DNA from: Isoptericola sp. BMS4
GTDB lineage: Bacteria; Actinomycetota; Actinomycetes; Actinomycetales; Cellulomonadaceae
DNA: 64,000 bases
Reading direction: 5' to 3'
Assembly: GCF_011634835.1 (NCBI RefSeq)
Contig: NZ_SIRP01000001.1
Coordinates: 2,996,289 to 3,060,288 of the forward strand
The notes beneath the pieces were generated by a model, which worked only from the letters and a program-made list of their open reading frames with translations, was not told the origin of the DNA and did no database searches. The translations under genes were made by a program, and so were the position numbers. Positions 8,376 to 40,772 of this stretch are shown one piece after another (position 1 is the stretch's first letter; each line of letters begins with the position of its first letter).

Positions 8376-11219
8376 GTGAGCGTCTCGACCCCTGCACCGA
8401 CCCCGCTCGTGGGCCGCTCCCACGAGCTCGCGCTGCTGCGCGACGCCGTCGCGGACGCCCGCGTGGGCCGCGGCCGCGCGGTCGTCGTGGCGGGCGAGGC
8501 GGGCATCGGCAAGACCCGCCTCGTCGAGGAGACGCTCGCGGCCGAGCACGGCTCCCCGGGCGCGGCCCCGCTGGTCCTGCGGGGACAGTGCGCCGACTCG
8601 GGGTCCGGCCCGGTCCCGTACGCGGGCCTCGCGGGCCTCGTGGCGGACGCCGTGGCGCAGATCGGCGCGGAGGCGACCCTGGAGGCCGCCGGGCCCGCCG
8701 CCGACGCCCTCGGCGCGATCGCGCCCGGGCTGGTCTCGCAACGCCGCGACGTGGACACGGGCCGCCTGCCCGAGGTGCTGTCCGACCTGGTGCTCGCCCT
8801 GTCGCGGCGCCGGCCGGTCGTCGTGGTCGTCGAGGACCTGCACTGGTCGGACGACGTGACCCGCACGGTCGTGTCCCGCCTCGCGCGCAGCGTGCCCGGC
8901 GCGCCCGTCCTGGTGGTCGTGAGCTACCGGAGCGACGAGGTCGGGCGACGCCACCCGCTGCGGGGCGTGCTGACGGAGCTCGCCCGCGCCCGCCTGGTGA
9001 CCACCGTGGAGGTGCCTCGGCTCGAGCCCGGCGAGGTCGTCGAGCTGACCGGGACCCTGCTGCGCCCGGGCGCGGCGCCCTCGCCCCTGCCCGGCGGCGT
9101 GCTGCAGGACCTGGTCGAGCGCAGCGAGGGGGTGCCGTTCTACGTCGAGGAGCTGGCCGAGTTCGTCGGCGGGTCGGCCGGCACCCGACTGCCGGAGACC
9201 CTGCGCGACGTGCTGCTGCTGCGCTACGGCGCCCTGTCCCCCGGCGCGCAGGCGTTCTGCCGCGCGGTCGCCGCGGCGGGCCAGCACGCGCCGCACGAGC
9301 TGCTGCGCGCGGTCCTGGGCGACGAGCACCTCGCGGAGGCCGAGACCGCCGCCCGCGAGGCGGTCGAGGCGCACGTGCTGCTCGCGAACGTCGACGGCTA
9401 CCGGTTCCGGCACGCCCTGATGCAGGAGGCCGTCGCCGACGAGCTGTTGCCCGGCGAGGCGCGGCGGTTGCACGCGGCCTACGCCGAGACCCTGGAGAGC
9501 ACGGGGCGCACCCTGGCCGACCGCGCCGCCGCGGCCGACCACTGGTGGCGCGCCCGCGTGCCGGACCGCGCCCTCGTCGCGGCGTCCGCCGCCGTCACCG
9601 CCGACGACGCCACGGGAGCGACGTCCACGGTGGTCGCGCTCGGCGAGCGTGCGCTCGAGCTGTGGGACCTCGTGCCCGACGCCGAGGGCCTGACCGGGGT
9701 GGGCCGGGCCGAGATGACGCGGCGGGTCGCCGCGGCCCTGCAGCAGGCCACACGCCTCGACCGCGCCGAGGCGCTCGCCCGCGAGGCCGTCGCCCTGTGG
9801 CCCGCCGACGACCCGTCGGGCAAGGCACGCGCCCTGGCCACCCTCGCCAACGTGGTCGCCAAGGCCGGCAGCCCCGAGGCGGAGGCCATCACCGACGAGG
9901 CGCTCGCCACGGTCCCCGACGACGACCTGGCGGGCCGCGCCGTCCTGCTGCGCGTCAAGGCCCGCAACGCCATGATCGACGGCCGGGACGCCGAGACCGT
10001 CGAGACCGCCACCCGGGGCTACGAGACGGCCGTGGCCGCGGGCGACACCGCGAACGCGTCGGTGTGCCTGAACATGCGCGCGATCGGCCGCGTCGACGGA
10101 GGCGACCGCGACGGGCTCGCCGACATGGAGCGGGCCCGCGAGCTCGCGGGAGACGACTGGTACCCGCTGAGCCACTACTACACCAACGCCTCCGACCTGC
10201 ACATCAAGCTCGGGGAGTTCGACGCCGCCCGGGAGATCGCCGAGGTCGGTGCGGCGCGCGCCCGCGAGCGCGGTGCCGGGTGGGCCAGCCGCGCCATGCT
10301 CGAGGGCAACGTCGCCGAGGCGCTCGTCGGGCTGGGCCGCTGGGCGGAGGCCGAGGCCTGGTACGAGCGCTCCGTCCCGCTGGTCGACCCCAGCGACTAC
10401 GCGGTGTACCTGGGCGAGCGGCGGGCCTGGCTGATGCTGTGGCGAGGACGCGTCGACGAGGCGCAGCGCGTAGGTCGGGCGCAGCGCGAGACCTGGCTGC
10501 GGTTCGGTCGCCTCGAGGCGCAGATCCGCGCGCGGGTCGCGCCGACGCTCGCCGAGCTCGCCCTCGAGCGCGACGACGTCGACGACGCGCTCGACCAGGT
10601 GCGGCTCGCCACCGACCCGGACGACCTCGCGCCGTCCTACCTGCTCCCCCTCCTCGGGGTCGCGGCGCGGGTGCTCGCGCACGCGCGCGACCTCGGCAGG
10701 CCCGTCGACGACGCGCCCTACCGCGCGGCGCTCGCCCGCTGCGCCGACTGGCCCACCTACCCGGCGTGGGCCGCCGTCGTCGCCGCGGAGCTCGGCGACG
10801 GCCCCTGGTCCGCCGTCGTGGAGGCCGGCGGACCCGCCCACCTGCGCCCCTACGCCCTGTTCCGCGACGGGCGGGCGCTCCTGGCCGCGGGCGACCGCGC
10901 CGCCGCGCGCGACCGGCTGGCGGCCGCGGTCGACGCCGCCGAGGCGATCGGAGCCGGGCTCGTGTCCGCCTGGGCGACGGAGCTGCTCTCCGGTGCGGGG
11001 CTGGCCGGGACGCGCCGCCGCAGCCCGGCCGCGGGCCTCACCGACCGCGAGCGCCAGGTGCTCGACCTCGTCGCGGAGGGGCTGACGAACGGGCAGATCG
11101 CCGAGCGCCTGTTCATCTCCCGCAAGACGGCGTCGGTGCACGTCTCGGCGATCCTGCGCAAGCTCGGGGTGACCAGCCGCACCGAGGCCGCCGTCCAGGC
11201 CGCCCACCTCCCCCGCTGA
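8376..11219 (+). CDS. Large LuxR-family regulator with N-terminal AAA ATPase (MalT-like)
   Basis: A 947-residue LAL-type regulator. Residues about 10-330 form an AAA/STAND ATPase with Walker A GEAGIGKT (40-47) and Walker B VVVVVEDLHWSDD. The middle (about 400-860) is Ala-rich and helical, probably TPR-like repeats used as sensor or oligomerisation arm. The last 60 residues are a LuxR helix-turn-helix (LTDRERQVLDLVAEGLTNGQIAERLFISRKTASVHV). The start is GTG at 8376; upstream in-frame codons are poor candidates. No neighbour suggests the target genes, and the effector is unknown. Confidence 0.9.
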   Translation: MSVSTPAPTPLVGRSHELALLRDAVADARVGRGRAVVVAGEAGIGKTRLVEETLAAEHGSPGAAPLVLRGQCADSGSGPVPYAGLAGLVADAVAQIGAEATLEAAGPAADALGAIAPGLVSQRRDVDTGRLPEVLSDLVLALSRRRPVVVVVEDLHWSDDVTRTVVSRLARSVPGAPVLVVVSYRSDEVGRRHPLRGVLTELARARLVTTVEVPRLEPGEVVELTGTLLRPGAAPSPLPGGVLQDLVERSEGVPFYVEELAEFVGGSAGTRLPETLRDVLLLRYGALSPGAQAFCRAVAAAGQHAPHELLRAVLGDEHLAEAETAAREAVEAHVLLANVDGYRFRHALMQEAVADELLPGEARRLHAAYAETLESTGRTLADRAAAADHWWRARVPDRALVAASAAVTADDATGATSTVVALGERALELWDLVPDAEGLTGVGRAEMTRRVAAALQQATRLDRAEALAREAVALWPADDPSGKARALATLANVVAKAGSPEAEAITDEALATVPDDDLAGRAVLLRVKARNAMIDGRDAETVETATRGYETAVAAGDTANASVCLNMRAIGRVDGGDRDGLADMERARELAGDDWYPLSHYYTNASDLHIKLGEFDAAREIAEVGAARARERGAGWASRAMLEGNVAEALVGLGRWAEAEAWYERSVPLVDPSDYAVYLGERRAWLMLWRGRVDEAQRVGRAQRETWLRFGRLEAQIRARVAPTLAELALERDDVDDALDQVRLATDPDDLAPSYLLPLLGVAARVLAHARDLGRPVDDAPYRAALARCADWPTYPAWAAVVAAELGDGPWSAVVEAGGPAHLRPYALFRDGRALLAAGDRAAARDRLAAAVDAAEAIGAGLVSAWATELLSGAGLAGTRRRSPAAGLTDRERQVLDLVAEGLTNGQIAERLFISRKTASVHVSAILRKLGVTSRTEAAVQAAHLPR

Positions 11220-27099: not shown

Positions 27100-29568
27100 T
27101 CAGCGGGCCAGCGGGCGCGCGTGCCAGACGCGGTCGAGGTAGTCGCGCACCGACCGGTCGGACGAGAAGAACCCGCTGCGGGCCACGTTGAGGACGGCCG
27201 AGCGGCTCCAGGCGTCCGGGTCGCGGTACGCCTGGTCGACGCGGTCCTGGGCGTCCAGGTAGGACTGGAAGTCGGCGAGCACCATGAACCGGTCCTCCCC
27301 CAGCAGGGTGGACACGACGGGCTCGAAGGCCGACCTGTCGCCGTCCGAGAACTCCCCTCGCGCGACGAGGTCGAGCGCGCGGCGCAGCGTCGCGTTCTCC
27401 TCGTAGTACGCCGCCGGCCGGTAGCCGGCCTCGGCGACGGCCGCCGCCTCCGGCTCGGTCAGTCCGAAGCCGAAGAAGTGGTCGTCGCCGACGAGCCCAC
27501 GGATCTCGACGTTCGCGCCGTCGTCGGTACCGATGGTCAGGGCCCCGTTGAGGGCCAGCTTCATGTTGCCCGTGCCCGAGGCCTCCTTGCCCGCCAGGGA
27601 GATCTGCTCGGACAGGTCCGCCGCGGGGATCAGGGCCTCCGCGACGGTGACGTTGTAGTTGGCGGGGAAGGCGACCCGCAGCACGCGGGACACCTCCGGG
27701 TGGGCGTTGACCACGGCCCCGACGCGGTTGACCAGCGCGATGATCTCCTTGGCCAGCGCGTAGCCGGGGGCCGCCTTCGCCCCGAGCACGACCGTGCGCG
27801 GGACGACGTCCTCGACCCTCACCTGCCCCGAGACGATGCGGTCGTACACCGTGACCACGTGCAGCACCTTGAGGGTCTGCCGCTTGTACTCGTGCAGCCG
27901 CTTGACCATGACGTCGAGCATCGTGCGCGGGGCGATCTCGATCCCGTCGCGGCGGGCCAGCAGCGCGGCGAGCCGGTCCTTGTTCGCCGCCTTGACCTCC
28001 CGGAACCGGCGGCGGAACTCGGCGTCGTCGGCGAGCGGCTCCAGCTCGCGCAGCCGGTCGAGGTCCGTCACCCAGCCGTCCCCGATCGCCTCGGTGATCA
28101 GCTCCGACAGGGCGGGGTTCGCGAGGCGGAGGAACCGGCGCGGCGTGACGCCGTTCGTGACGTTCGTGAACTTCTCGGGCCACAGCCGCGCGAAGTCGGC
28201 CAGCACCTTGTCCCGCAGCAGCCGGGAGTGCAGCTCGGCGACGCCGTTGACCCGGGTGGCGGCGACGGTGGCCAGGTGCGCCATACGCACGCTGCGCACC
28301 GGGTGCTCGGCGATGATCGACGTGCGGCGCACCAGCAGCTCGTCGTCGCCGGAGCGCTCGCGCACCTGGGCGAGGAACTCGTCGTTGATGCGGAAGATGA
28401 TCTCCAGGTGCCGGGGCAGCAGGCGGCCGAGCAGGTCGACCGGCCAGGTCTCCAGCGCCTCGGGCAGCAGCGTGTGGCACGTGTAGGCGAAGCAGCCGCG
28501 GGTGACCTCCCACGCCTCGTCCCACTCGAAGCCGCGCTCGTCCACGAGGATCCGCATCAGCTCCGGCACCGCGATGACCGGGTGGGTGTCGTTGAGCTGG
28601 AAGCAGATCCGCTCGGGCAGCCGGTGCAGGTCGAAGTCCTCCGGCAGCATCCGGTCGATGAAGTCCCGCAACGAGCACGCCACGAAGAAGTACTGCTGCT
28701 GCAGGCGCAGCTCCTTGCCCTGCGGCGTGGAGTCCTCCGGGTACAGGACCTTGGTGATGTTCTCGGCGAACGTCTGGGCGCGCACCGCCTCGGTGTAGTC
28801 GCCGTGGTTGAAGATCCGCAGGTCGAACGCGTGCGTCGCCCGGGCGCTCCACAGCCGCAGCGTGTTCACCATGCCGTTGCGGTAGCCGGGGACCATGTAG
28901 TTGTACGGGACGCCGAGCACCTGCCAGCCGGGCACCCACCGCGTGCGCTCCCGCCCGCCGTCGTCGACCCGCTCGGTGTGGCCGGCGAAGCTCACCGTGA
29001 CCTCGTGCTCGGGGTGCGCGAACTCCCACGGGGAGCCCCGGTCGAGCCACTCGTCGGGGTCCTCGACCTGGCGCCCGTCCTCGCCGAACCGCTGCCGGAA
29101 GATCCCGTACTCGTAGCGGATGCCGTAGCCGATGGCGGGCACGCCGAGGGTCGCCAGCGAGTCGACGAAGCACGCCGCCAGGCGCCCGAGCCCCCCGTTG
29201 CCCAGCCCCGGCTCGACCTCGACCTCGCGCAAATCCACCAGGTCGATGCCCAGGCTCGCCAGCGCCTCGGCGGCGACCGCCTCCAGGTCCGTGGCGACGA
29301 GGCCGTTGTCGAGCTGGCGGCCCAGCAGGTACTCGGCCGACAGGTACGCCACCGCCTTGGGCTGGGCCCGGTAGTGCTCCACGGTGGTCTGCATCCACCG
29401 CGACATGAGGTAGTGCCGGACCGTGCGGGCGAGCGCCTGGTACTCGTCGTTCACCGTGGCGCGCTCCAGCACCGTGCCCTGCGTGAAGTTGAGCTCGTGC
29501 AGGAACTCGCGCACGAAGCCCTCGACGGAGCGCTCCGGGCTGGTGATCAGAGGCGTGGTCTCGGTCAC
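27100..29568 (-). CDS. glgP: Glycogen/alpha-glucan phosphorylase
   Basis: Cleaves alpha-1,4 glucan ends with phosphate to give glucose-1-phosphate, using pyridoxal phosphate. The 822-residue product is the long maltodextrin/glycogen phosphorylase type. The PLP lysine is K670 in EASGTGNMKLALNGALTIGTDDGANVEI; other marks are VAYLSAEYLLGRQLDNGL, EPGLGNGGLGRLAACF and FQLNDTHP. GTG at 29568, with TACTGT (29580-29575) 6 nt upstream, gives VTETTPLITSP. It is followed by a degV-like gene with its own promoter, and no other glycogen gene lies in the window. Confidence 0.96.
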   Translation of the reverse strand: MTETTPLITSPERSVEGFVREFLHELNFTQGTVLERATVNDEYQALARTVRHYLMSRWMQTTVEHYRAQPKAVAYLSAEYLLGRQLDNGLVATDLEAVAAEALASLGIDLVDLREVEVEPGLGNGGLGRLAACFVDSLATLGVPAIGYGIRYEYGIFRQRFGEDGRQVEDPDEWLDRGSPWEFAHPEHEVTVSFAGHTERVDDGGRERTRWVPGWQVLGVPYNYMVPGYRNGMVNTLRLWSARATHAFDLRIFNHGDYTEAVRAQTFAENITKVLYPEDSTPQGKELRLQQQYFFVACSLRDFIDRMLPEDFDLHRLPERICFQLNDTHPVIAVPELMRILVDERGFEWDEAWEVTRGCFAYTCHTLLPEALETWPVDLLGRLLPRHLEIIFRINDEFLAQVRERSGDDELLVRRTSIIAEHPVRSVRMAHLATVAATRVNGVAELHSRLLRDKVLADFARLWPEKFTNVTNGVTPRRFLRLANPALSELITEAIGDGWVTDLDRLRELEPLADDAEFRRRFREVKAANKDRLAALLARRDGIEIAPRTMLDVMVKRLHEYKRQTLKVLHVVTVYDRIVSGQVRVEDVVPRTVVLGAKAAPGYALAKEIIALVNRVGAVVNAHPEVSRVLRVAFPANYNVTVAEALIPAADLSEQISLAGKEASGTGNMKLALNGALTIGTDDGANVEIRGLVGDDHFFGFGLTEPEAAAVAEAGYRPAAYYEENATLRRALDLVARGEFSDGDRSAFEPVVSTLLGEDRFMVLADFQSYLDAQDRVDQAYRDPDAWSRSAVLNVARSGFFSSDRSVRDYLDRVWHARPLAR

Positions 29569-29589: not shown

Positions 29590-31095
29590 TCAGTGCGCGG
29601 CGACGGCTCCCGCGACGGCGGCGGGCGCCGTCGGCATCGCCGCCCGCGCCGCCCGGGTGCGGAACAGCGCGAAGGTCAGGACCGCGCCGAGCAGGAAGAT
29701 CCCCGCGGACCAGCCGAAGGCCACGTCATAGCTGTGCACGGCCGCCTGCGCCGCGACGTCGGGCGACGCCGGCTGGTGGTCGGCGACGTACGCGGTCGCG
29801 GCCGTCGTCGCGAGGGTGTTGAGCACGGCCGTCCCGACGGCGCCGCCCACCTGCTGGGACGTCTGCACCATCGCGGAGGCGGCGCCCGCGTAGCGCCGCT
29901 CGACGCCGACGGTCGCCGTCTGGATCGACGGCGGCATGGTGCAGCCCATGGCGACGCCGAGCATCAGGAGGCCCGGCAGGACCCCTCCCGCGTAGGTGCT
30001 GTCCACGTCGAGGCGGGAGAACCAGGCCATCGCGACGGCGCCGACGGTCAGCCCGACGGGGACGAGGGCCTTGGGGCCGAACCGGGGCAGCGTCACGTTG
30101 GTGGAGACCTGCGCCGTCACGACGATCGCGAGCACCATCGGCAGGAAGGCCACTCCGGTGCGCATGGGGTCGTAGCCCATCGTCGTCTGCAGGTAGTAGG
30201 TGAGGAAGAGGGAGACGCCCAGCATGCCGAGCCCGGCGACGAAGACGCCGGAGAACGAGCCGGCGCGGTCGCGGTCGGTGAGGATCGACAGGGGAAGCAC
30301 CGGCACGGGAGCCCGGCGCTGCCGGCGGACGAACCCCACGAGGAGCACGACCGACACGGCGAGCGGACCCCACGTCCACGCCGAGTCCCAGCCCTGCGGC
30401 TCGGCCTGGGAGAACCCGTAGACCAGCAGGAACAGGCCGCCCGAGCCGAGCAGCACCCCGGGCACGTCGAGGTGCTGGCGGGTCCCCGCGCTGCGCGGCA
30501 GCAGGACCAGGCCGGCGACCAGCGCGACGGCGGCGAAGAACAGGTTGACGTACAGGTTCCAGCGCCAGTCGAGGTTCTGGGTGAGGAAGCCGCCCAGCAG
30601 GAGACCGACGGCGCCGCCCACGCCGGCGATCGCCCCGAAGACCCCGAACGCGCGCCCGCGCTCGGAGGGGTCGGTGAACGTGGTGGTCAGCACGGCGAGC
30701 GCCGACGGCGCGAGCACGGCCGCGAACACGCCCTGCAGGGCGCGCGCGGCGACGAGGATCTCGAACGTCGGCGCGGCGCCGCCCAGGGCGGAGGCGACGG
30801 CGAAGCCGACGAGGCCCACCAGGAAGGTGCGCCGCCGGCCCAGCAGGTCGGAGAGCCGGCCGCCGAGCAGCAGGAGGCTGCCGAACGCCAGCGCGTACGC
30901 GGTGACGACCCACTGGCGGTCGTTGTCGCTGAACCCGAGCTCCGCCTGGGCGGAGGGCAGGGCGATGTTCACGATGGTGGCGTCGAGGACGACCATGAGC
31001 TGCGCGATGGCCACCGTGGCCAGGACGAGCCACCGGCGCGGGTCTGGCCCGGCCGCGGCGGGCACGGCGGAGGCAGCGGGGTCGAGCGAGGTCAT
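29590..31095 (-). CDS. MFS drug efflux transporter, DHA2 (14-TM) type
   Basis: 501 residues with about 14 hydrophobic segments, the EmrB/QacA size. Motifs include the N-terminal D-x-T-I-V-N-(I/V)-A-L-P (LDATIVNIALP), motif A (GGRLSDLLGRRRTF) and motif C (GAIAGVGGAVGLLLGG). Substrate not deducible; this family exports drugs, dyes or antibiotics. It is divergent from a TetR gene across a 233-bp region with two tandem 16-bp operator-like repeats overlapping its -35, so repression by that TetR is likely. Confidence 0.92.
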   Translation of the reverse strand: MTSLDPAASAVPAAAGPDPRRWLVLATVAIAQLMVVLDATIVNIALPSAQAELGFSDNDRQWVVTAYALAFGSLLLLGGRLSDLLGRRRTFLVGLVGFAVASALGGAAPTFEILVAARALQGVFAAVLAPSALAVLTTTFTDPSERGRAFGVFGAIAGVGGAVGLLLGGFLTQNLDWRWNLYVNLFFAAVALVAGLVLLPRSAGTRQHLDVPGVLLGSGGLFLLVYGFSQAEPQGWDSAWTWGPLAVSVVLLVGFVRRQRRAPVPVLPLSILTDRDRAGSFSGVFVAGLGMLGVSLFLTYYLQTTMGYDPMRTGVAFLPMVLAIVVTAQVSTNVTLPRFGPKALVPVGLTVGAVAMAWFSRLDVDSTYAGGVLPGLLMLGVAMGCTMPPSIQTATVGVERRYAGAASAMVQTSQQVGGAVGTAVLNTLATTAATAYVADHQPASPDVAAQAAVHSYDVAFGWSAGIFLLGAVLTFALFRTRAARAAMPTAPAAVAGAVAAH

Positions 31096-31206
31096 AGCGG
31101 CTCCCTGGAGCGAGGACGTGGTGCAGGGACGACGGTGTGCGATCGGGGGCGCGAGGTGCGCGCCGGGCGGGACACGCCCGGGGCCGGGTGACCGGCGGTA
31201 CGATCG

Positions 31207-31212
31207 ATGCTA
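31207..31212 (-). promoter_or_regulatory. MFS promoter -10 box
   Basis: TAGCAT on the minus strand, with a TTTCGA -35-like hexamer 17 nt upstream inside the repeat operator. Transcription start is predicted about 110 nt upstream of the MFS ATG. Confidence 0.4.
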
Positions 31213-31218
31213 GGCGAC

Positions 31219-31250
31219 ACCGGCCAGTTTCGAAACCGGTCAGTATCGGA
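31219..31250. promoter_or_regulatory. Tandem 16-bp repeats, candidate TetR operator
   Basis: ACCGGCCAGTTTCGAA at 31219-31234 is followed directly by ACCGGTCAGTATCGGA at 31235-31250; 13 of 16 positions match. A perfect palindrome GTTTCGAAAC spans 31227-31236. It is the most AT-rich patch in the divergent region and covers the -35 of the MFS gene. Confidence 0.65.
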
Positions 31251-31328
31251 ACACGGCCCCTGTTCGCTCACGGCGAACACCCCCCGACGCAGGCCCCGGC
31301 CCGCACCGCACGACCCGAGGAGCCCGAC

Positions 31329-31982
31329 ATGAAGGCCGCCGACACCGCCGTCGAGCCTGCGCCCGCCACCCGCCGCGCCCAGGGCGGGCGCCCGCGCGAC
31401 GCCTCGCGCGACGTGGCGATCCTCGACGCCGCGCGCGAGCTGCTGTCCGAGGTGGGCTACGAGGGCACGACCATGGACGCCGTCGCCGCTCGCGCCGGCG
31501 CGAGCAAGGCCACCCTCTACCGGCGCTGGACGTCGAAGGAGGACCTCGCCGTCGAGGCCGTCACGTGCGCGATGGGCACCATCGACCCGGGCGACGTCCC
31601 GGACACCGGCTCGCTCGCCGGCGACCTGCACGCCCTCGAGCGCCTGCGGCGCTCACGGCGGTCGGCCGCCACGGACCATCTGATCCCCGGCCTCATGGCC
31701 GAGGTGCGCCGCGACCCCGACCTCGCCCGACGCTTCCACGCGACCATCGTGCAGCCGAAGATCGACCAGGTCCACGCGATCCTCGTCCGGGCGCGCGAGC
31801 GCGGCGAGATCCCCCCGGAGCGCGACCTCGACCTCGTGAGCACCGTCGTGCCCGCGCTCATCTCCTACCGCAAGGTCGTCGCCGGCCAGACGCTGGCGCC
31901 CGAGGACGTCGACCGGCTCTACCAGGAGGTCCTGGTACCGCTGGCGACCGCCCCGGCCGACGTCACTCCCCCACCAGCGTGA
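31329..31982 (+). CDS. TetR family transcriptional regulator
   Basis: 217 residues. Helix-turn-helix DNA-binding domain at about residues 30-75 (ARELLSEVGYEGTTMDAVAARAGASKATLYRRWTSKEDL), then a helical ligand domain of no specific subfamily. ATG at 31329 is fixed by GAGGAG at 8 nt. Divergent from the MFS exporter, with operator-like repeats between, so a local repressor is likely. Its stop overlaps the convergent jetC 3' end by 20 nt (31963-31982). Confidence 0.92.
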   Translation: MKAADTAVEPAPATRRAQGGRPRDASRDVAILDAARELLSEVGYEGTTMDAVAARAGASKATLYRRWTSKEDLAVEAVTCAMGTIDPGDVPDTGSLAGDLHALERLRRSRRSAATDHLIPGLMAEVRRDPDLARRFHATIVQPKIDQVHAILVRARERGEIPPERDLDLVSTVVPALISYRKVVAGQTLAPEDVDRLYQEVLVPLATAPADVTPPPA

Positions 31983-34900
31983 CCAGGCGCGACCTGCCGG
32001 TCGCGTCCTTGATCGTCTGCAGCACGACGTCCGCGTGCGGCTCCAGCGCGCTGACCTTGTCCAGCGGGGCACCCACGATCAGCTGGAAGCCCAGCCCGCG
32101 CCAGGCGCCGACGGCGCGGCCGGCGAACCGGGCGTCGGCCTTGATGAACGCCTCGTCGAGGAACACCGGCGCGTAGCGGGGCCGTTCGGCCCCGGCATCG
32201 CCGAGCTGGTAGCGCAGCGCCGCGCCGACGATGAACGCGACGAGCTCCTGCGACTCGCCGCCGGACTTGCCGGCGATGTGGTCGTAGACGCTCACGTGGT
32301 TGCCCTCGAGGTCCACGCACTCGGCGCTGATGCGCACGTGGTCGCGCACGTCCACGAGGCGCCGCCGCTCGGGGCTGTCGGGCCGGATGCGGTCGATGAG
32401 CTTCGTCATCCGCGCGTACCGGCGCTCGTGCTCCGCCAGCGGCACGTCGCCGACGGGCGCCGTCGCGAGCTCGCGCAGCTGCCGGCGGAACGACGCGACG
32501 TCCTGGCCCTCCGTGGGCGTGGCGGTGATGCGCAGCCGGTGCGCGTCGTCGCGGAACGGCAAGGTCGCCAGGATCGCGTTGACCGGCTCCATGCGGTCGC
32601 GGATCTCGGCGACCGCCTGCGCGATGCCGTTGTTGAGCCGGGTGAGCTGGTCGCCGGACATCTGCCGCAGGTGCGCGGACCACTTGTCCCGCAGCCGGTA
32701 CAGCTGGGCGAACTCCAGGTCCTCGTAGATCCGCAGGAAGTCCGCGTACGCGGCGTCCGGGTCGGCCGTCCGGTTCGGGTCGGGCCAGGTGTCGTTGAAC
32801 CGCTCGAACAGCGCCCCGAGCGCGGCCCGGGCGCTGCGCTCGGCCTCGACGGCGGCGTCCCGCTCGTGCTCGAGCTCGCGGACGACGGCGGCCACGGCCG
32901 TCATGAGGTCCACCAGGCCGCCGCTCTGGCCGCCCGGCACGGCGCCCGACCAGCCCACCTGGGCCAGCAGCTCCAGGAGCCGGCGCTCCTGGGCGCCGTC
33001 CGGCGCGACGCCCTCGGCGTCGGCCCGCTCGACGGCGTCGGTGACCTGGTCGACCTGGTCCCCGATCTCCCCCCAGGCGGCGGCCAGCTCGGTCACCCGG
33101 TGCTGGGCGTCGGCCCGCTCGCGGTACAGCTCCGTCAGCCGCGTCCGCAAGCTCTCCTCGTCCGCCTTGAGCTCGCGCAGCACGTCCGACCCGGCCACCA
33201 GCGTGGCCAGGCGCTCCTGCCGGTCGGCGAGGCGGGCCTCGGCGCCCGCCACGTCGACGTCCTCCCACGCCACGCGCAGCGCCTGGCTGTACGCGACGAA
33301 GTGGTCGGCCTCGCCCTTCTGCCGCAGCCGCGCCCCGGCGAGGGCCTCGGCGGCCCGGCGCAGCCCGGCGCGCGCCTCCTCGATCTCGGCGGCGAGCCGC
33401 TCCAGACGCCGGTGGTTGCTGAAGCCGAGCACGGACGCGCGCCCCCCGCCGCCGTGGGCACCGCGTCGCCCCTCGGCCGTCTGCCCCGACCGGGTCAGCG
33501 CGAGGTCGTGCCGGGCGAGGTCGGCCGGGTCGTCCACGCACACGTAGGCGAAGCGCTCCGCGAGCCGGCCGGCGAGCCAGCCGCCGAACGGGCCGGCCTT
33601 GACCTCCAGGCGCCCGGGCAGCAGGCCGCGGTCGGTCTCCTCGTGCAGGGGCAGCCCCGTCGGGACCCCCTCGAACCGGACGCGCACGGGCGAGCGGACC
33701 TCGTCGATCGCCGCGCGGAACGCGTCGAGGCGCGCGTCGTCGACGAGCAGCGTGACGGCGAAGCCGCCGAGCGCCAGCCCGATCGCGTCCCGCCACGGCT
33801 CGTACTCGCCGCGCACCTCGAGCAGCTCGCCGACGAACGGGACGTCGTCGGGGCGCATGCCGGCCGCCCGGGCGAGGTTCACCCGGGCCTCGTGCAGCTC
33901 GCGGGGGACGTTGCCCCGGCGCGCCTTCAGCGACGCCTCCTCGCGCTCCAGCTCGGCCAGCGCGCGGCCGGCCTCCTTCTCCCGGGTGCTGGCGTCGACG
34001 ACGGCCTCGGACAGCGCGTCCGTGTGGCGGTCGCGGTCCTCGCGGTACGCCGTCGCGTCGGCGTGCAGCGCCTCCAGGTCGCGCCGCGACGCCACCTGCC
34101 GCTCGAGGGGAGCCAGGTGGCCGTCCAGCTCGGTGCGCAGACGGCGCACCTCGGCCAGCCGCTTCTCCGCCTCCCGCACCTCGCGCTCGGCGGCCTCGAC
34201 GGCGTCCCCGCCGTTGCGGCGCTGGTCGGCGCGCACCCTCTCCAGCTCCGCCTCCGCGTCGACGATGCGCTCGTCCGCGACCGCGACCCGCTCCGCGGCG
34301 GCCTTGTGCTGCCCCCGGTTCCGCGTCTCGGCGTCGCGGAGCAGGTCGAGGCGCGTCCGGTCGCGCCACGCCGTGAACGGGGTGGGGGCGCCGTCCGGGC
34401 CGCCCGCGAGACCGAGGTCGTCCACCAGCCGGCGGGCGGCGACCGCGTCGTCGATCGCCGTGCGGTGCTCCAGCATGGGGCGCAGCACGTCCACCTGCCG
34501 CTGCGCCCGGTCCATCTCGGCGCGCACCTCGCTCAGCTCGTCGAAGTGCTCGACGGCACGCTCCGCCACCCGGATCGTCTCCGGCTCGGTGAGCACCATC
34601 GCCTTGTACAGGGAGTCGACGGTGGTGATCTGCTGGCCGGCCTGGATGCGGCCCAGCAGCTGCATCGCCTTGTCGCCGTCGCCCGCCGCGCCGATGCCGA
34701 GCGCGGCGTGCAGCCGGGTCGCGAACGCCTTGTCCGTGTCGAACGTCGTCAGCCCCGCGGCCACGAGGCCCGGCTTGGCGAAGCGCTGCGCCGCGAGCGG
34801 CTCCAGCGTGCGCAGGTCGAACGCCTCGTCGACGACGGCGCGCACCGGCGTCGTCTCGTCGGTGCGGGTCGCGGCGCGCGGCACGTACCAGGCGCGCAGC

Positions 34901-35367
34901 GCGGTGAGCCGCTCCCCCGCCTGCGAGGACCACGTCATCGCGATCGCCGACCACGTGTCCGAGGCCTCGCCGCGCAGCACGCGGTCGGTGGACGCCGCGG
35001 CGTCCCCGGTGCGCTGCTCGTCGAGCTTGCCGCGCGCGTACGAGAGGACGTTGCGCTGCTCCTGGCCGCGGGCGCGGCCGCTCGTCGCCCCGTTCGACGC
35101 CCCGTTGAACGGCGTGGTGTGGCTCATCATCAGCGCGATGTAGGCGTCGAGGAGGGTCGACTTGCCGGACCCCGAGGCGCCCGTGAGCAGCGTCGTGGTG
35201 CCCGCGAACCGGACCTCGTGGTAGCCGTGATACCCGCCCCAGTTCACGAGCTGCACCGACCGCGCGGTCCACTGGCGGCCGTCGGAGGCCGCGGGGATCA
35301 GACCGAACAGGGACTGCTGCATGCGCGGCCCGGCGTCGCGCTCGGCCGTGCTGTCGGTGACGGTCAC
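31963..35367 (-). CDS. jetC: JetC/MksB-type SMC-like ATPase
   Basis: A 1134-residue SMC/Rad50-like ATPase. Walker A GASGSGKS at residues 63-70 follows the family N-terminus (WTARSVQLVNWGGYHGYHEVRFAGTTTLLTG). Long Arg/Glu-rich coiled-coil arms occupy most of 230-960 with a hinge-like break. The ABC signature KSGGESQ is at 1034-1040 and Walker B YAPVFLDEAF near 1065-1074. This is the motor of Wadjet (JetABCD) or MksBEF, which extrudes DNA loops with JetA and JetB. GTG at 35367 overlaps the jetB stop by 4 bp (GTGA). The downstream gene expected in Wadjet, jetD (TOPRIM nuclease), is absent. Confidence 0.93.
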   Translation of the reverse strand: MTVTDSTAERDAGPRMQQSLFGLIPAASDGRQWTARSVQLVNWGGYHGYHEVRFAGTTTLLTGASGSGKSTLLDAYIALMMSHTTPFNGASNGATSGRARGQEQRNVLSYARGKLDEQRTGDAAASTDRVLRGEASDTWSAIAMTWSSQAGERLTALRAWYVPRAATRTDETTPVRAVVDEAFDLRTLEPLAAQRFAKPGLVAAGLTTFDTDKAFATRLHAALGIGAAGDGDKAMQLLGRIQAGQQITTVDSLYKAMVLTEPETIRVAERAVEHFDELSEVRAEMDRAQRQVDVLRPMLEHRTAIDDAVAARRLVDDLGLAGGPDGAPTPFTAWRDRTRLDLLRDAETRNRGQHKAAAERVAVADERIVDAEAELERVRADQRRNGGDAVEAAEREVREAEKRLAEVRRLRTELDGHLAPLERQVASRRDLEALHADATAYREDRDRHTDALSEAVVDASTREKEAGRALAELEREEASLKARRGNVPRELHEARVNLARAAGMRPDDVPFVGELLEVRGEYEPWRDAIGLALGGFAVTLLVDDARLDAFRAAIDEVRSPVRVRFEGVPTGLPLHEETDRGLLPGRLEVKAGPFGGWLAGRLAERFAYVCVDDPADLARHDLALTRSGQTAEGRRGAHGGGGRASVLGFSNHRRLERLAAEIEEARAGLRRAAEALAGARLRQKGEADHFVAYSQALRVAWEDVDVAGAEARLADRQERLATLVAGSDVLRELKADEESLRTRLTELYRERADAQHRVTELAAAWGEIGDQVDQVTDAVERADAEGVAPDGAQERRLLELLAQVGWSGAVPGGQSGGLVDLMTAVAAVVRELEHERDAAVEAERSARAALGALFERFNDTWPDPNRTADPDAAYADFLRIYEDLEFAQLYRLRDKWSAHLRQMSGDQLTRLNNGIAQAVAEIRDRMEPVNAILATLPFRDDAHRLRITATPTEGQDVASFRRQLRELATAPVGDVPLAEHERRYARMTKLIDRIRPDSPERRRLVDVRDHVRISAECVDLEGNHVSVYDHIAGKSGGESQELVAFIVGAALRYQLGDAGAERPRYAPVFLDEAFIKADARFAGRAVGAWRGLGFQLIVGAPLDKVSALEPHADVVLQTIKDATGRSRLVTLVGE

Positions 35368-36140
35368 GCGGTCGCCTCCTCGTCGTCGTCCTGGTCGTCG
35401 TCGGCGCCGCCCGGCTCGTCGGGGGCGACCGTGCCGCCGCCGCGCAGCCAGTCGGTGAGCGCGTGCAGCCGCTCCACCGGCAGGAGCACCTCGATCACCG
35501 GCTCGATCCGGAACCTGCCGGCCGCGACCTCGACGAGCACCCGCTCGCGCACGAGCGTGGCGACGGCGTTGTCGATCTCCCGCCGCCGGCCGGCGAGGTT
35601 GGTCTCCCCGGGGGCCAGGAAGCCGAGCGCGTAGTCCACCAGCTCCTCGGTGTCGACGTGCGCGGCCCGCTCCCCCGCGCCCTGCTCCTGGCGGAAGCGG
35701 TTGCGCGCGAACAGCATGAGCAGGGTCTCGACCCGCTTGTACGGCTCGTCCTTGAGCAGCACGGGGATGCTCAGGCCGGGCTCGCGCACCTGGCGCTTGT
35801 AGGCGATCTCGTAGTCGCGGTCGACGACCAGCTCGACGAACAGGTCGTGGCAGCGCGAGGCCAGCACGGTCTGGTGCGCGAGCAGCGCCCGCCACTCGGC
35901 CGGGTGCGCCGACGAGGACAGGTAGCGGCGCTGCATCACCAGGGCCAGGGCGCGCCGCGCCTCGTAGGGCAGCACGCCGGTGTCGCCCGCGAACAGCGCC
36001 CGGTCGTCGTCCTCCACCGCCACGGCGTCGACGAACGTGCCGGTCGCGCCGGTCCCGCCCGCCTCCTCGGCGTCCGTCCCGGTCGCCGCGACCGCATCGG
36101 TCGCCTCGGTCGCCTCGGTCGCCTCGGTCGACGTGGTCAT
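35364..36140 (-). CDS. jetB: JetB/MksE-type protein (DUF4194)
   Basis: 258 residues of DUF4194. The kleisin-associated winged-helix core runs from about residue 45 (DDRALFAGDTGVLPYEARRALALVMQRRYLSSSAHPAEW) to 230, with the family stretch KDEPYKRVETLLMLFARNRFRQEQG. Both ends are acidic or disordered; the N-terminal Thr/Glu/Ala repeat comes from a 9-nt tandem repeat at 36099-36130 that could vary in length. It joins JetA and JetC in the loop-extruding complex. ATG at 36140 overlaps the jetA stop (ATGA) and the stop overlaps jetC (GTGA), so all three are stoichiometrically coupled. Confidence 0.92.
   Translation of the reverse strand: MTTSTEATEATEATDAVAATGTDAEEAGGTGATGTFVDAVAVEDDDRALFAGDTGVLPYEARRALALVMQRRYLSSSAHPAEWRALLAHQTVLASRCHDLFVELVVDRDYEIAYKRQVREPGLSIPVLLKDEPYKRVETLLMLFARNRFRQEQGAGERAAHVDTEELVDYALGFLAPGETNLAGRRREIDNAVATLVRERVLVEVAAGRFRIEPVIEVLLPVERLHALTDWLRGGGTVAPDEPGGADDDQDDDEEATA
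36099..36130. repeat. 9-bp tandem repeat in jetB
   Basis: GGTCGCCTC repeated 3.5 times, encoding Thr-Glu-Ala units near the JetB N-terminus. Copy changes would keep the reading frame. Confidence 0.7.
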
Positions 36141-37711
36141 CGTTCCCCCTCCTCGTCGTCACCGGGTGCGTCGCCGGACGCATCGCCGGGCACCTCGACC
36201 GGGACCCGCGGCACCACCAGGTCCCGCGTGCTGCCGTCCGCCCGCACCGCCGTCACCCGGCCCAGCCGCGACGCCGGCACGTCGCCGTCGCCCAGCACGT
36301 CCTCCAGAGCCCCGGGCGACGCCAGCTCCAGGTAGCCGAGGAGCTCCACCGGCCGGCGCAGCTCCGGCGGGGCGAGGGCGAACACCTCGTCCGCCGTCGC
36401 CTCCCCGCGCTCGCGCAGCACCCGCGCGGCGTGCGCCGTCTGCTCGGCGTACCGCGGGCCGCCCATGCCGAGCAGTCCGTCCAGCGCCCCGGCCACGTCG
36501 TCGTCCCCGAAGCCGTCGGCCGCGTCGAGCGCCTCCGGCGGGGTGTCGGGCCGCAGGTCGTGCAGCTGGGTGCGGAACCGGCCGAGGCGCGCCCGTTCGA
36601 ACCAGCGCAGCGGCTCGACGCGCGCCGTGCGGCCGGAGCCGGGGAACCAGTCCGCCATCGCGGCGGTCGCCTCGCGCAGCGCGATGTCGAGCTCCCGGTC
36701 GCGCAGCGGGTTGTGCACCTTGAGCTGCTGGGTGATGGTGCGCGACGCGCGGGCCTGGGCGTCCAGCACGGCGTCCACCGCCGTGAGCAGCTGGGAGTAC
36801 AGCGCCTGGACGGCGTCGCGCCGTTCGGGCGGCAGGTCGTCGGCGAACGGGTGGGCCAGCACCGCCCGCACGCGCTCGTCCACCTGCGCCAGGAGGTGCG
36901 GGTCGCGCAGCAGCGCCATCGCGCCGGAGAACGCCCGGCCCTCCGCGGTGCGCCGCATGAGGCTGTCCGACGCGTCCAGGTAGTCCCCCAGGACCTCGCC
37001 CGTCGCCCGCTCGTCCTGGCGCAGGCGGGTCACGATGCTGCGCTGCAGCTCGGCGATCGACTCCGCTACCCGGGCGAAGTCGGCGGGCAGCTCGCGCACC
37101 AGCGCGGACACGTTGTCGAACTGCTCGACGAGGCGGTCGCGCGGCACCTCGGCGACCGGCCCGCCCGCCTCCAGGCGGGCCAGCTCGGCCTCCGCCACCG
37201 CGATCTCGTCGCGGGAGCGGGCGATCTGCTCGCGCAGCGCAGCCCGCTGGGAGTCCCGGTCGGGGCGGGCGTCGCGGGCCAGCCCCTCCAGGGCCACGAG
37301 CAGCGTGCGGATGCGCGACTCGCTCACCAGCGCCCTGCCGCCCTGGGTGCGGTCCACGAAGGCCAGCGCCTCGGCCGCGTACGAGCTGACGTGGTACTGC
37401 TCCGCGCCGTCGCCGTCGAGCGTGCGCACCAGCCAGCGGCCCGCGACCCAGCGAGCGCAGAGGGCGCGGGCCGGCTCGTCGGGCACCTCGTGGCCGGCAG
37501 CGCGCGCCTCGGCCAGCAGGTCCTCCACCTCGACGTGCATCTGCTCGGTGGCGACCGTCGCGCGGCCCGGGGTGAAGATGAGCGAGAGCAGCGCGACGAC
37601 GAGCGGGCCCTCCTTGCGGTGCAGGAGGGCCAGCGCAGGCGTGCCGAAGGCGCGCCCGCTCCGGGCGAGCGCGCCCTCCAGGCGTGCGGTCGGTGAGGTC
37701 ACCCGCGGCAC
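36137..37711 (-). CDS. jetA: JetA/MksF-type kleisin (DUF3375)
   Basis: 524 residues of DUF3375, the kleisin-like subunit that bridges the JetC heads. N-terminal winged helix (ALLHRKEGPLVVALLSLIFTPGRATVATEQMHVEVEDLL), a long helical middle with coiled-coil stretches (REQIARSRDEIAVAEAELARLEAG), and a C-terminal winged helix after a disordered acidic tail. GTG at 37711 follows AAGGGA. First gene of the operon, 79 bp behind leuS. In Wadjet systems JetABC compacts small circular DNA so that JetD can cut it; in MksBEF (Pseudomonas) the same trio works without a nuclease. Confidence 0.92.
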   Translation of the reverse strand: MPRVTSPTARLEGALARSGRAFGTPALALLHRKEGPLVVALLSLIFTPGRATVATEQMHVEVEDLLAEARAAGHEVPDEPARALCARWVAGRWLVRTLDGDGAEQYHVSSYAAEALAFVDRTQGGRALVSESRIRTLLVALEGLARDARPDRDSQRAALREQIARSRDEIAVAEAELARLEAGGPVAEVPRDRLVEQFDNVSALVRELPADFARVAESIAELQRSIVTRLRQDERATGEVLGDYLDASDSLMRRTAEGRAFSGAMALLRDPHLLAQVDERVRAVLAHPFADDLPPERRDAVQALYSQLLTAVDAVLDAQARASRTITQQLKVHNPLRDRELDIALREATAAMADWFPGSGRTARVEPLRWFERARLGRFRTQLHDLRPDTPPEALDAADGFGDDDVAGALDGLLGMGGPRYAEQTAHAARVLRERGEATADEVFALAPPELRRPVELLGYLELASPGALEDVLGDGDVPASRLGRVTAVRADGSTRDLVVPRVPVEVPGDASGDAPGDDEEGER

Positions 37712-37790: not shown

Positions 37791-40772
37791 TCACACGACG
37801 ATGTTGACGAGCTTGGGCGCGCGCACGATCACCTTGCGGATCTCGGCGCCGTCGATCGCCCGCACGACGTTCGGCTCCGCCAGCGCGGCGGCCTGCAGGT
37901 CCTCGTCGGAGATGGACGGGGAGACCTCGACGCGCCCGCGGACCTTGCCCTTGACCTGCACGACGCAGGTCACGGTGTCCTCCACGAGGTACTGCTCGTC
38001 GGCCGCCGGGAACGGCTCGCGCGCCAGGGACCGGTCGTGGCCGAGCCGCTCCCACAGCTCCTCGGCGAGGTGCGGCGCGATCGGCGCGACCATGAGCACC
38101 AGGGGCTCCACGGCCGCACGCGGCACCCGGTCCAGGCCCGTGAGGTGGTTGTTGTAGGTGATGAGCTTGGCGATCGCCGTGTTGGGGCGCAGGCTCTCCA
38201 TCTCGGTGCGCACGTCGGCGATCGTGCGGTGCAGCGCGCGCAGCGTCGCGGTGTCCGGCGCGTCGTCGGTGACGACCAGCGCGCCGGTCTCCTCGTCCAC
38301 GACGTTGCGCCACAGCCGCTGCAGGAACCGCTGCGACCCCACGACGGCGCGGGTCTCCCACGGCCGCGACAGGTCCAGCGGGCCCATCGACATCTCGTAC
38401 ACGCGGAACGTGTCGGCGCCGTACGCCTCGTACATCTCGTCCGGCGTGACGACGTTCTTCAGCGACTTGCCCATCTTGCCGTACTCGCGGTGCACGGGGA
38501 CGCCGTCCAGCGTGAACCCGGTCTGCTCGTCGCCGGTCACGTCGGCCGCGTTCACGTACGCGCCGCGGTCGTCGGTGTACGCGTAGGCCTGGATGTAGCC
38601 CTGGTTGAACAGCTTGCCGAACGGCTCCAGGGACGAGACGTAGCCCAGGTCGAACAGCACCTTGTGCCAGAACCGCGCGTACAGCAGGTGCAGCACCGCG
38701 TGCTCGACGCCGCCGACGTACAGGTCGACGCCGCCTGCCGGCCCCGACGTGGCGTTGTGCTGCGGCCCCATCCAGTACCGCTCCAGGCCGGGGTCGACGA
38801 CGGCGGTGCCGGTCGCCGGACCGTCCGTGGAATCCGTCGGGTCCAGGTACCGCAGGTAGTACCAGCACGACCCGGCCCAGTTCGGCATGGTGTTCGTGTC
38901 GCGGCGGTAGGTCTTCGGCCCGTCGCCCAGGTCGAGGGTGACGTGCACCCAGTCGTCGTTGCGGCCCAGCGGCGCCTCCGGGGACGACTCCGCGTCGTCG
39001 GGGTCGAAGGTGCGCGGCGCGTAGTCGGGCACGTCCGGCAGGTCCACGGGAAGCAACTCGGCGGGAATCGCCACCGGGCGGTCCTCGGAGTCCCACAGGA
39101 TGGGGAACGGCTCGCCCCAGTACCGCTGTCGGCTGAACAGCCAGTCGTTGAGGCGGTAGGTGGTGGTGCCCTCGCCGACCCCCTTGGCCTCCAGCCACGC
39201 GATGATGCGCTCCTTGGCCTCGGCGACGCCCAGCCCGTCCAGGGAGATCTCGTCGTTCGACGAGTTGATCGCCCGCCCCTCGCCGCTGTACGCGCCGGCG
39301 AAGTCGTCGGCGAACCCGCCGTCCGGCTCCACTGTGTGCACGACCGGCAGGTCGTACGCCTCGGCGAACGCGAAGTCGCGCTCGTCGCCGCCGGGCACGG
39401 CCATGATGGCGCCCGTGCCGTAGCCCATCAGCACGTAGTCGGCAGTGAACACGGGGACCGTCTCGCCGTTGACGGGGTTGACGGCCAGGTGGCCGGTGAA
39501 CACGCCCGTCTTCTTGCCGGCGTCCGCCTGGCGCTCGACGGCGGTCTTCGCGGCGGCCTCGGCGCGGTAGGCGGCGACGGCCTCGGCGGGGTTCCTGTGC
39601 CCGCCGGTCCAAGCGTCGCGCGTGCCGTCGGGCCAGTCGGCGGGCACCTCGTCCAGCAGCGGGTGCTCGGGCGCCACGACCATGAAGGTCGCGCCGAACA
39701 GGGTGTCCGGCCGGGTGGTGAACACCTCCACCTGCTCGCCGGCGCCCGCGGGGTCGGTGCCTGTCGTGCCGACGACGGCGAACCGGACGTTGGCGCCCGT
39801 CGAGCGGCCGATCCAGTTGCGCTGCATCGCCTTGACCTTGTCGGGCCAGTCGATGAGCGCCAGGTCGTCCGTCAGCCGGTCGGCGTAGGCGGTGATGCGC
39901 ATCTTCCACTGGCGCAGGTGGCGCGTGAACACCGGGAAGTTGCCGCGCTCGGACCGGCCGTCGGCCGTGACCTCCTCGTTGGCCAGCACGGTGCCCAGGC
40001 CGGGGCACCAGTTCACGGGCGACGAGTCGACGTACGCCAGGCGCTGGGCGTCCAGCACGTCGCGCCGCTCGGCCTCGGACAGCGCCGCCCACACCGCGCC
40101 GCCCGCGTTGTCGCCGTCGTGGCCGGGGACCGGCCGCGCGCCGGCCGCCAGCTCGTCGCGCAGCTCCGAGATGCGGCGGGCGCGACCGCGCCCGGTGCCC
40201 ACGGTGTCGCCCGGGCGCTCGGCGTCCGGGTCGTACCAGGAGTCGAAGATCTGCAGGAAGATCCACTGCGTCCAGCGCACGTAGTCAGGGTCGATCGTGG
40301 CGAACGTGCGCCGGTCGTCGTGCGCCAGCCCCATGCGGCGCAGCTGGCGCTTCATGGTGACGATGTTCTGCTCGGTCGTCGTGCGCGGGTGCTGGCCCGT
40401 CTGCACGGCGTACTGCTCCGCGGGCAGCCCGAACGCGTCGTAGCCCAGCGCGTGCAGCACGTTGTCGCCGCACATCATGCGGAACCGGCCGACGACGTCG
40501 GTGGCGATGTAGCCCAGCGGGTGCCCGACGTGCAGCCCGGCGCCCGAGGGATACGGGAACATGTCCATGATGAAGAACGGCTGCCCGGCCCCGGCGTTCG
40601 CGCCGTCGCCGTCGGTGAGCGCGCCCTGCGGGTTCGCGGCGTGGAACGTGCCGCGCTCCTCCCAGCGGTCCTGCCAGCGCTCCTCGATCTGCTGGGCGAG
40701 GGCGGGCGTGTAGCGGTGGGTCGGCGTGGCCGACGCGGGACTGGGCGCGGAGGTGGTCTCGGGCGTGCTCAC
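37791..40772 (-). CDS. leuS: Leucyl-tRNA synthetase
   Basis: Class I synthetase that charges tRNA-Leu. The 993-residue product has the HIGH motif as HVGH (81-84, in [15 protein letters not shown]), a CP1 editing domain ([22 protein letters not shown]), and KMSKS as KMGKS near 766-770. The anticodon-binding domain and the C-terminal LeuRS extension are complete. GTG at 40772 has TAGACT (40785-40780) 7 nt upstream and no Shine-Dalgarno, so the mRNA is probably leaderless. N-terminal 15 residues are a weakly conserved Ser/Pro tail. Confidence 0.97.

Follow-up and report, generated by a model that had tools for sequence, protein, structure and literature searches.

A Wadjet type I JetABC motor without a JetD nuclease, conserved beside leuS in Isoptericola and its relatives, with a probable role other than plasmid cutting

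In the Wadjet systems loop extrusion on DNA, the recognition of small circles and the activation of the JetD nuclease are attributed to the JetABC complex in the current model (PMC10586767). The type I version is known as JetABCD, as MksBEFG in Corynebacterium glutamicum and as EptABCD in Mycobacterium smegmatis. The C. glutamicum MksBEFG, in which MksG is present, acts on plasmids and not in chromosome organisation (PMC7083940). The MksBEF system of Pseudomonas aeruginosa is thought to have lost JetD, which provides a precedent for the situation described here (PMC10586767), and it organises the chromosome together with Smc (PMC10586767, PMC7485682). In a review the chromosome condensins MksBEF and MukBEF have been suggested to stem from Wadjet-like defence, a step inferred to be ancient (PMC10586767). 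Versions of jetABC that are devoid of jetD have already been reported by annotation pipelines, namely as PADLOC 'Wadjet other' (PMC9252829), and a JetA-JetB-JetC entry is found in a table for Paenarthrobacter lasiusi (PMC11719660); in these sources jetABC is handled as incomplete or background matches. In the open-licence papers searched we found no analysis of the conservation, selection or loss of JetD-less jetABC.

The stretch of DNA analysed here (the window, 64,000 nucleotides) comes from a soil actinobacterium whose closest named relatives are Isoptericola species. Its relevant features are as follows:

27100..29568, minus strand: glgP, glycogen phosphorylase-like, the conserved downstream flank, found after jetC throughout most of the genus and in several sister genera
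29590..31095, minus strand: MFS transporter (MFS_1, 182.7 bits), forming an inserted pair with the TetR gene; not part of the system
31329..31982, plus strand: TetR-family regulator (TetR_N, TetR_C_11), convergent with jetC; not part of the system
31963-35367, minus strand: jetC, mksB-like SMC ATPase of 1134 aa (PADLOC JetC1 PDLC00517, 1440.7 bits; motifs and PDB matches)
35364-36140, minus strand: jetB, mksE-like KITE subunit of 258 aa, DUF4194 (PF13835, 121.8 bits; PADLOC JetB1 PDLC00473, 255.4 bits)
36137-37711, minus strand: jetA, mksF-like kleisin of 524 aa, DUF3375, the first gene of the trio (PF11855, 345 bits; PADLOC JetA1 PDLC00464, 515.7 bits)
37791..40772, minus strand: leuS, leucyl-tRNA synthetase, a neighbour on the same strand whose upstream position is conserved (syntenic within the genus and in several of its sister genera)

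An earlier note on this DNA had described a trio of DUF3375, DUF4194 and SMC-like ATPase genes, tightly coupled and with intact motifs, and the open reading frames, Pfam, PADLOC and a motif check all agree with that description. The genes overlap by ATGA (jetA/jetB) and GTGA (jetB/jetC), and by PADLOC and these overlaps type I JetA, JetB and JetC are present in one operon. JetC recovers the Pfam families SbcC_Walker_B and AAA_29 and retains the complete set of ATPase motifs, i.e. Walker A GASGSGKS (residue 63), the signature KSGGESQ (1034) and Walker B VFLDEA (1068). Its closest solved structures in the PDB are the JetC proteins 8dk2 and 8as8 (E about 1e-82 to 1e-79). On these sequence criteria it is classified as a Wadjet type I JetC, with MukB as a weak match (E 1e-4). 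The trio thus shares its families, gene order, overlaps and ATPase motifs with Wadjet type I, from which it differs in lacking JetD both in the operon and in the genome and in being fixed beside leuS in a housekeeping setting. Like MksBEF of P. aeruginosa, which likewise is an SMC-kleisin-KITE trio without a nuclease next to a normal Smc system, it comprises homologues of MksB, MksE and MksF and no MksG. However, the P. aeruginosa system belongs to another lineage, whereas the clade of the window trio still has close JetD-bearing relatives and displays many changes in jetD state; the best solved relatives of the window JetC are Wadjet JetC proteins. MukBEF belongs to the same architectural class of SMC-kleisin-KITE motors, but its sequence match is weak (in the PDB, E 1.3e-4 for the MukB structure 1qhl versus 3.3e-82 for JetC), with the Pfam MukB model scoring 19.5 bits, below its cut-off of 23 bits.

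No nuclease gene of the JetD type (DUF3322 combined with JetD_C/TOPRIM) is present in the operon, in keeping with the earlier observation that none adjoins the trio. The possibility that JetD is encoded elsewhere, which the earlier note had left standing, fared poorly: across the whole genome (4.43 Mb, 99.99% complete) PF09983 (JetD_C), PF11795 (DUF3322) and the PADLOC model PDLC00530, the JetD model with the best scores on the JetD proteins of close relatives, gave no match at E<=10. The PF09983 search appears sensitive enough for this purpose, since it recovered JetD in 22 relatives. As far as these three models can show, an unlinked JetD is therefore rejected for the window genome. A different effector in the place of jetD, also proposed earlier, finds no counterpart in a recurrent gene, as no neighbour recurs beside jetC across the JetD-less loci. 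Searches of the fetched family loci for a decayed jetD beside jetC by tblastn and relaxed HMMs produced chance-level matches, save for one 14-bit HMM match in L084, which was rejected as a remnant because it falls on an unrelated P-loop gene.

On the downstream side the convergent TetR gene and the jetC 3' end share exactly 20 nt, as had been noted, and the order past jetC is TetR, MFS, glgP. Only the TetR/MFS pair is peculiar to the window genome: none of the fetched relatives was found to have it (29590-31982) in the interval from jetC to glgP, and where glgP comes next in them it is mostly no more than a few hundred nt away from jetC. Hence the pair, which had been thought to occupy the place of jetD, is a local insertion unrelated to jetD and was rejected as a stand-in for it. 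On the upstream side leuS is separated from the trio by 79 nt, and the gaps between leuS and jetA in relatives are often of a few bases only, which suggests co-transcription of leuS and jetABC.

The order leuS-jetA-jetB-jetC, usually followed by glgP, extends across the genus and several sister genera. A comparison of this region in related species, as advised earlier, thus finds the JetD-less order to be common to them, with glgP rather than TetR/MFS as the usual downstream neighbour. All 16 genomes of the genus, including that of the window, possess JetC, and 15 of them have no jetD at the leuS locus. JetD occurs in four genomes of the genus, in three of them (G072, G094 and G141) beside a separate divergent jetABC and in G137 at the leuS locus. 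Altogether six genomes combine the JetD-less trio with a separate, divergent jetABCD (L062 and L129 in G141, L063 and L127 in G072, L064 and L130 in G094, L096 and L126 in G148, L074 and L136 in G025, L085 and L140 in G015). The GTDB family, which also includes Cellulomonas, Promicromonospora, Sanguibacter, Luteimicrobium and others, encodes JetC in 121 of 150 genomes and JetD in 22 of 150. In 20 of these 22 JetD lies next to a jetC; in the other two (G120 and G135), both fragmented assemblies, JetC and JetD are on different short contigs. In Cellulomonas, Promicromonospora and others the trio occupies other positions, and there too jetD is mostly absent. Order-wide, 346 genomes were sampled with the PDLC00517 model for JetC; the protein is present in 151, 78 of which hold no JetD anywhere. 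The proportion of JetC-bearing genomes without JetD differs between families, being 25/31 in f1, 23/30 in f10 and 3/25 in f7, which mostly keeps JetD. Thus, the missing nuclease is not peculiar to one strain.

In a JetC tree of 120 sequences the 26 JetD-bearing rows are dispersed among 94 JetD-less ones, implying at least 18 changes of state, with the proviso that the trees are quick searches with long branches in which the deep position of a few rows is unsure. The earlier note had named as a contrary outcome a JetC falling firmly within MksB in a clade that never had jetD; this was not found, since JetD-bearing members are placed both within the wider clade and around it. A strict Dollo reconstruction, which permits no regain, gives 37 losses; collapsing weak branches lowers this to 27. 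We prefer the minimum of 18 changes, because regain by exchange is indicated by the G137 operon. In this genome L119 (G137:C32:23054-38431) carries a jetABCD with jetD between leuS and glgP; its leuS is 91% identical to that of the congener L062, while its JetC reaches at best 64%, to another genus. Hence, it appears that the resident trio between the native leuS and glgP gave way to a foreign jetABCD. The JetC of Luteimicrobium xylanilyticum (L059/L165) is nested among those of Isoptericola while its leuS is distant, and as its trio is JetD-less it appears that the nuclease-less form itself has moved horizontally into Luteimicrobium. Within the main clade the JetD proteins group together and broadly track JetC, a pattern that fits the loss of jetD from a jetABCD operon present in the ancestor. 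A 52-codon 3' stump of jetD is still visible behind jetC in Cellulomonas sp. URHE0023 (L194, about 9494-9650), which is sister to a JetD-bearing strain.

The JetC genes of close JetD-less pairs mostly have dN/dS values of 0.06-0.13, with 0.17 in L121/L122, and JetA and JetB are likewise constrained. Values for leuS in the close pairs measured are 0.09-0.24, and in most pairs with both genes measured JetC is about equal to leuS or lower; the window genome and L055, which form a more distant pair, give 0.23 for both. The ATPase motifs were scored by script as intact in 91 of the 94 JetD-less rows. Of the other three, one carries a Walker B variant with methionine, and in two the called start probably cuts off Walker A, so that a tolerated substitution or a misplaced start would seem to account for these exceptions. 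From the low dN/dS and the intact ATPase motifs it follows that the trio is kept by selection without JetD. Alignment columns that are conserved with JetD and relaxed without it number 23 in JetA, 10 in JetB and 30 in JetC; most of these merely mark the deep clade of the window trio.

Thus, most of the relatives, like the window organism itself, keep a Wadjet motor without the gene for its cutting enzyme. Because the intact motor genes are under strong selection and adjoin household genes, the motor probably does a job other than plasmid cutting. We consider it reasonably probable that a Wadjet type I core repeatedly lost JetD and was kept for nuclease-free work, most likely as a MksBEF-like second condensin on the chromosome. 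The earlier alternatives of a MksBEF-like factor or a Wadjet without its nuclease are accordingly narrowed to a JetD-less Wadjet type I trio, with jetD at the same locus in some relatives; the MksBEF-like part, i.e. the chromosome role, is what we infer. In mechanistic terms JetC, JetA and JetB would form a complete, ATP-driven SMC-kleisin-KITE complex, which from what is known of Wadjet would extrude DNA loops. Without JetD there would be no double-strand cut to destroy plasmids, and the known mechanism should not cleave them. The complex would be retained for nuclease-free work with the chromosome as its substrate, alongside Smc-ScpAB; given that Smc and ScpA are also encoded in the window genome, JetABC would be a second SMC motor. 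Several observations count against a chromosome role. Among actinobacterial relatives, study in the native host is confined to the plasmid-directed C. glutamicum MksBEFG, though it has MksG. The operon replacement in G137 and the apparent transfer of the trio into Luteimicrobium are behaviours also expected of defence genes. Further, the JetB N-terminal motif FVDAVAVEDDDRALFAGDTG (window 35980-36040) is, in an N-terminal alignment, of the type common to JetD-bearing relatives, and the segment F[IV]xPxxMExDxxxLFxGDxG is conserved in relatives with or without JetD, which implies that some JetD-related surface may persist. An IFDR motif of JetB is reported to contact JetD (PMC10586767), and the PDB alignment of the window JetB begins past the region of that motif.

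Conservation and setting make the chromosome role the most likely reading, and conservation alone does not identify the substrate. The main rival, which we regard as unlikely though deserving of attention, is that JetABC restricts plasmids without cutting, by reeling in or compacting small circular DNA and thereby lowering its expression, copy number or segregation. A similar restraint has been proposed for Smc5/6 on viral circles. The intact JetABC of the window and the coexistence of JetABC with jetABCD in some genomes would suit such restraint, as would the fact that the family senses circular DNA through extrusion, an ability that resides in JetABC itself (PMC10586767). Nevertheless, plasmid suppression in Bacillus subtilis required all four genes (PMC10586767), deletion of mksG in C. 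glutamicum equals that of mksB or mksF in its plasmid effect (PMC10123090), and the trio lies at a fixed housekeeping locus and not in a defence island. If instead JetABC partners a nuclease or other effector encoded elsewhere, whether a JetD-like protein that escaped recognition or an enzyme of another kind, the retained N-terminal segment of JetB in JetD-less members could represent a persisting docking site; the lack of any match to the three JetD models at E<=10, the linkage of JetD to jetC in all but the two fragmented genomes among its 22 bearers in the family, and the failure of any recurrent neighbour to replace jetD make such a partner improbable.

The interleaving of JetD-bearing and JetD-less states on the JetC tree and the exchange in G137 might also be read as signs of a platform persisting between defence episodes, with jetD dropped when costly and regained by whole-operon exchange under plasmid pressure. 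We hold this to be still less probable: deep JetD-less clades span several genera without decay and with low dN/dS, and genes are not kept by selection for future use, so that JetABC must have a present function. The least probable reading, to which we give very little credence, is that the trio is what remains, in decay, of a Wadjet system that was lost. The disappearance of jetD and the mere stump in one relative might speak for it, but purifying selection throughout the clade already largely refutes it, together with the three intact overlapping genes, the ATPase motifs retained in essentially all members and the conservation of the trio over several genera.

While jetABC without jetD as such is already known, the novelty here lies in the scale, conservation and switching of this arrangement. 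The step that has been inferred as an ancient one for the chromosome condensins appears many times in these bacteria, in which close relatives with and without the nuclease occupy the same locus and one jetD stump is visible. We see an about even chance that loss of the nuclease while the motor is kept is a route taken repeatedly in Actinomycetota, giving rise to a separate, widespread class of SMC motors with a nuclease-independent job (on the chromosome or in restraining plasmids without cutting) and to a locus able to revert to cutting by operon exchange. The availability of matched strains with and without the nuclease therefore makes the nuclease-free role of a loop-extruding defence motor directly testable. 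For many actinobacterial genomes, the label of Wadjet defence that annotation tools give to jetABC may be mistaken.

Loci L242-L246, L249-L257 and L259-L261, from other families of the order, have JetC without detectable JetD, and their downstream genes are varied. In same-strain comparisons JetD shows 42-56% identity versus 50-76% for JetA, JetB and JetC, indicating that JetD diverges faster than the motor subunits.
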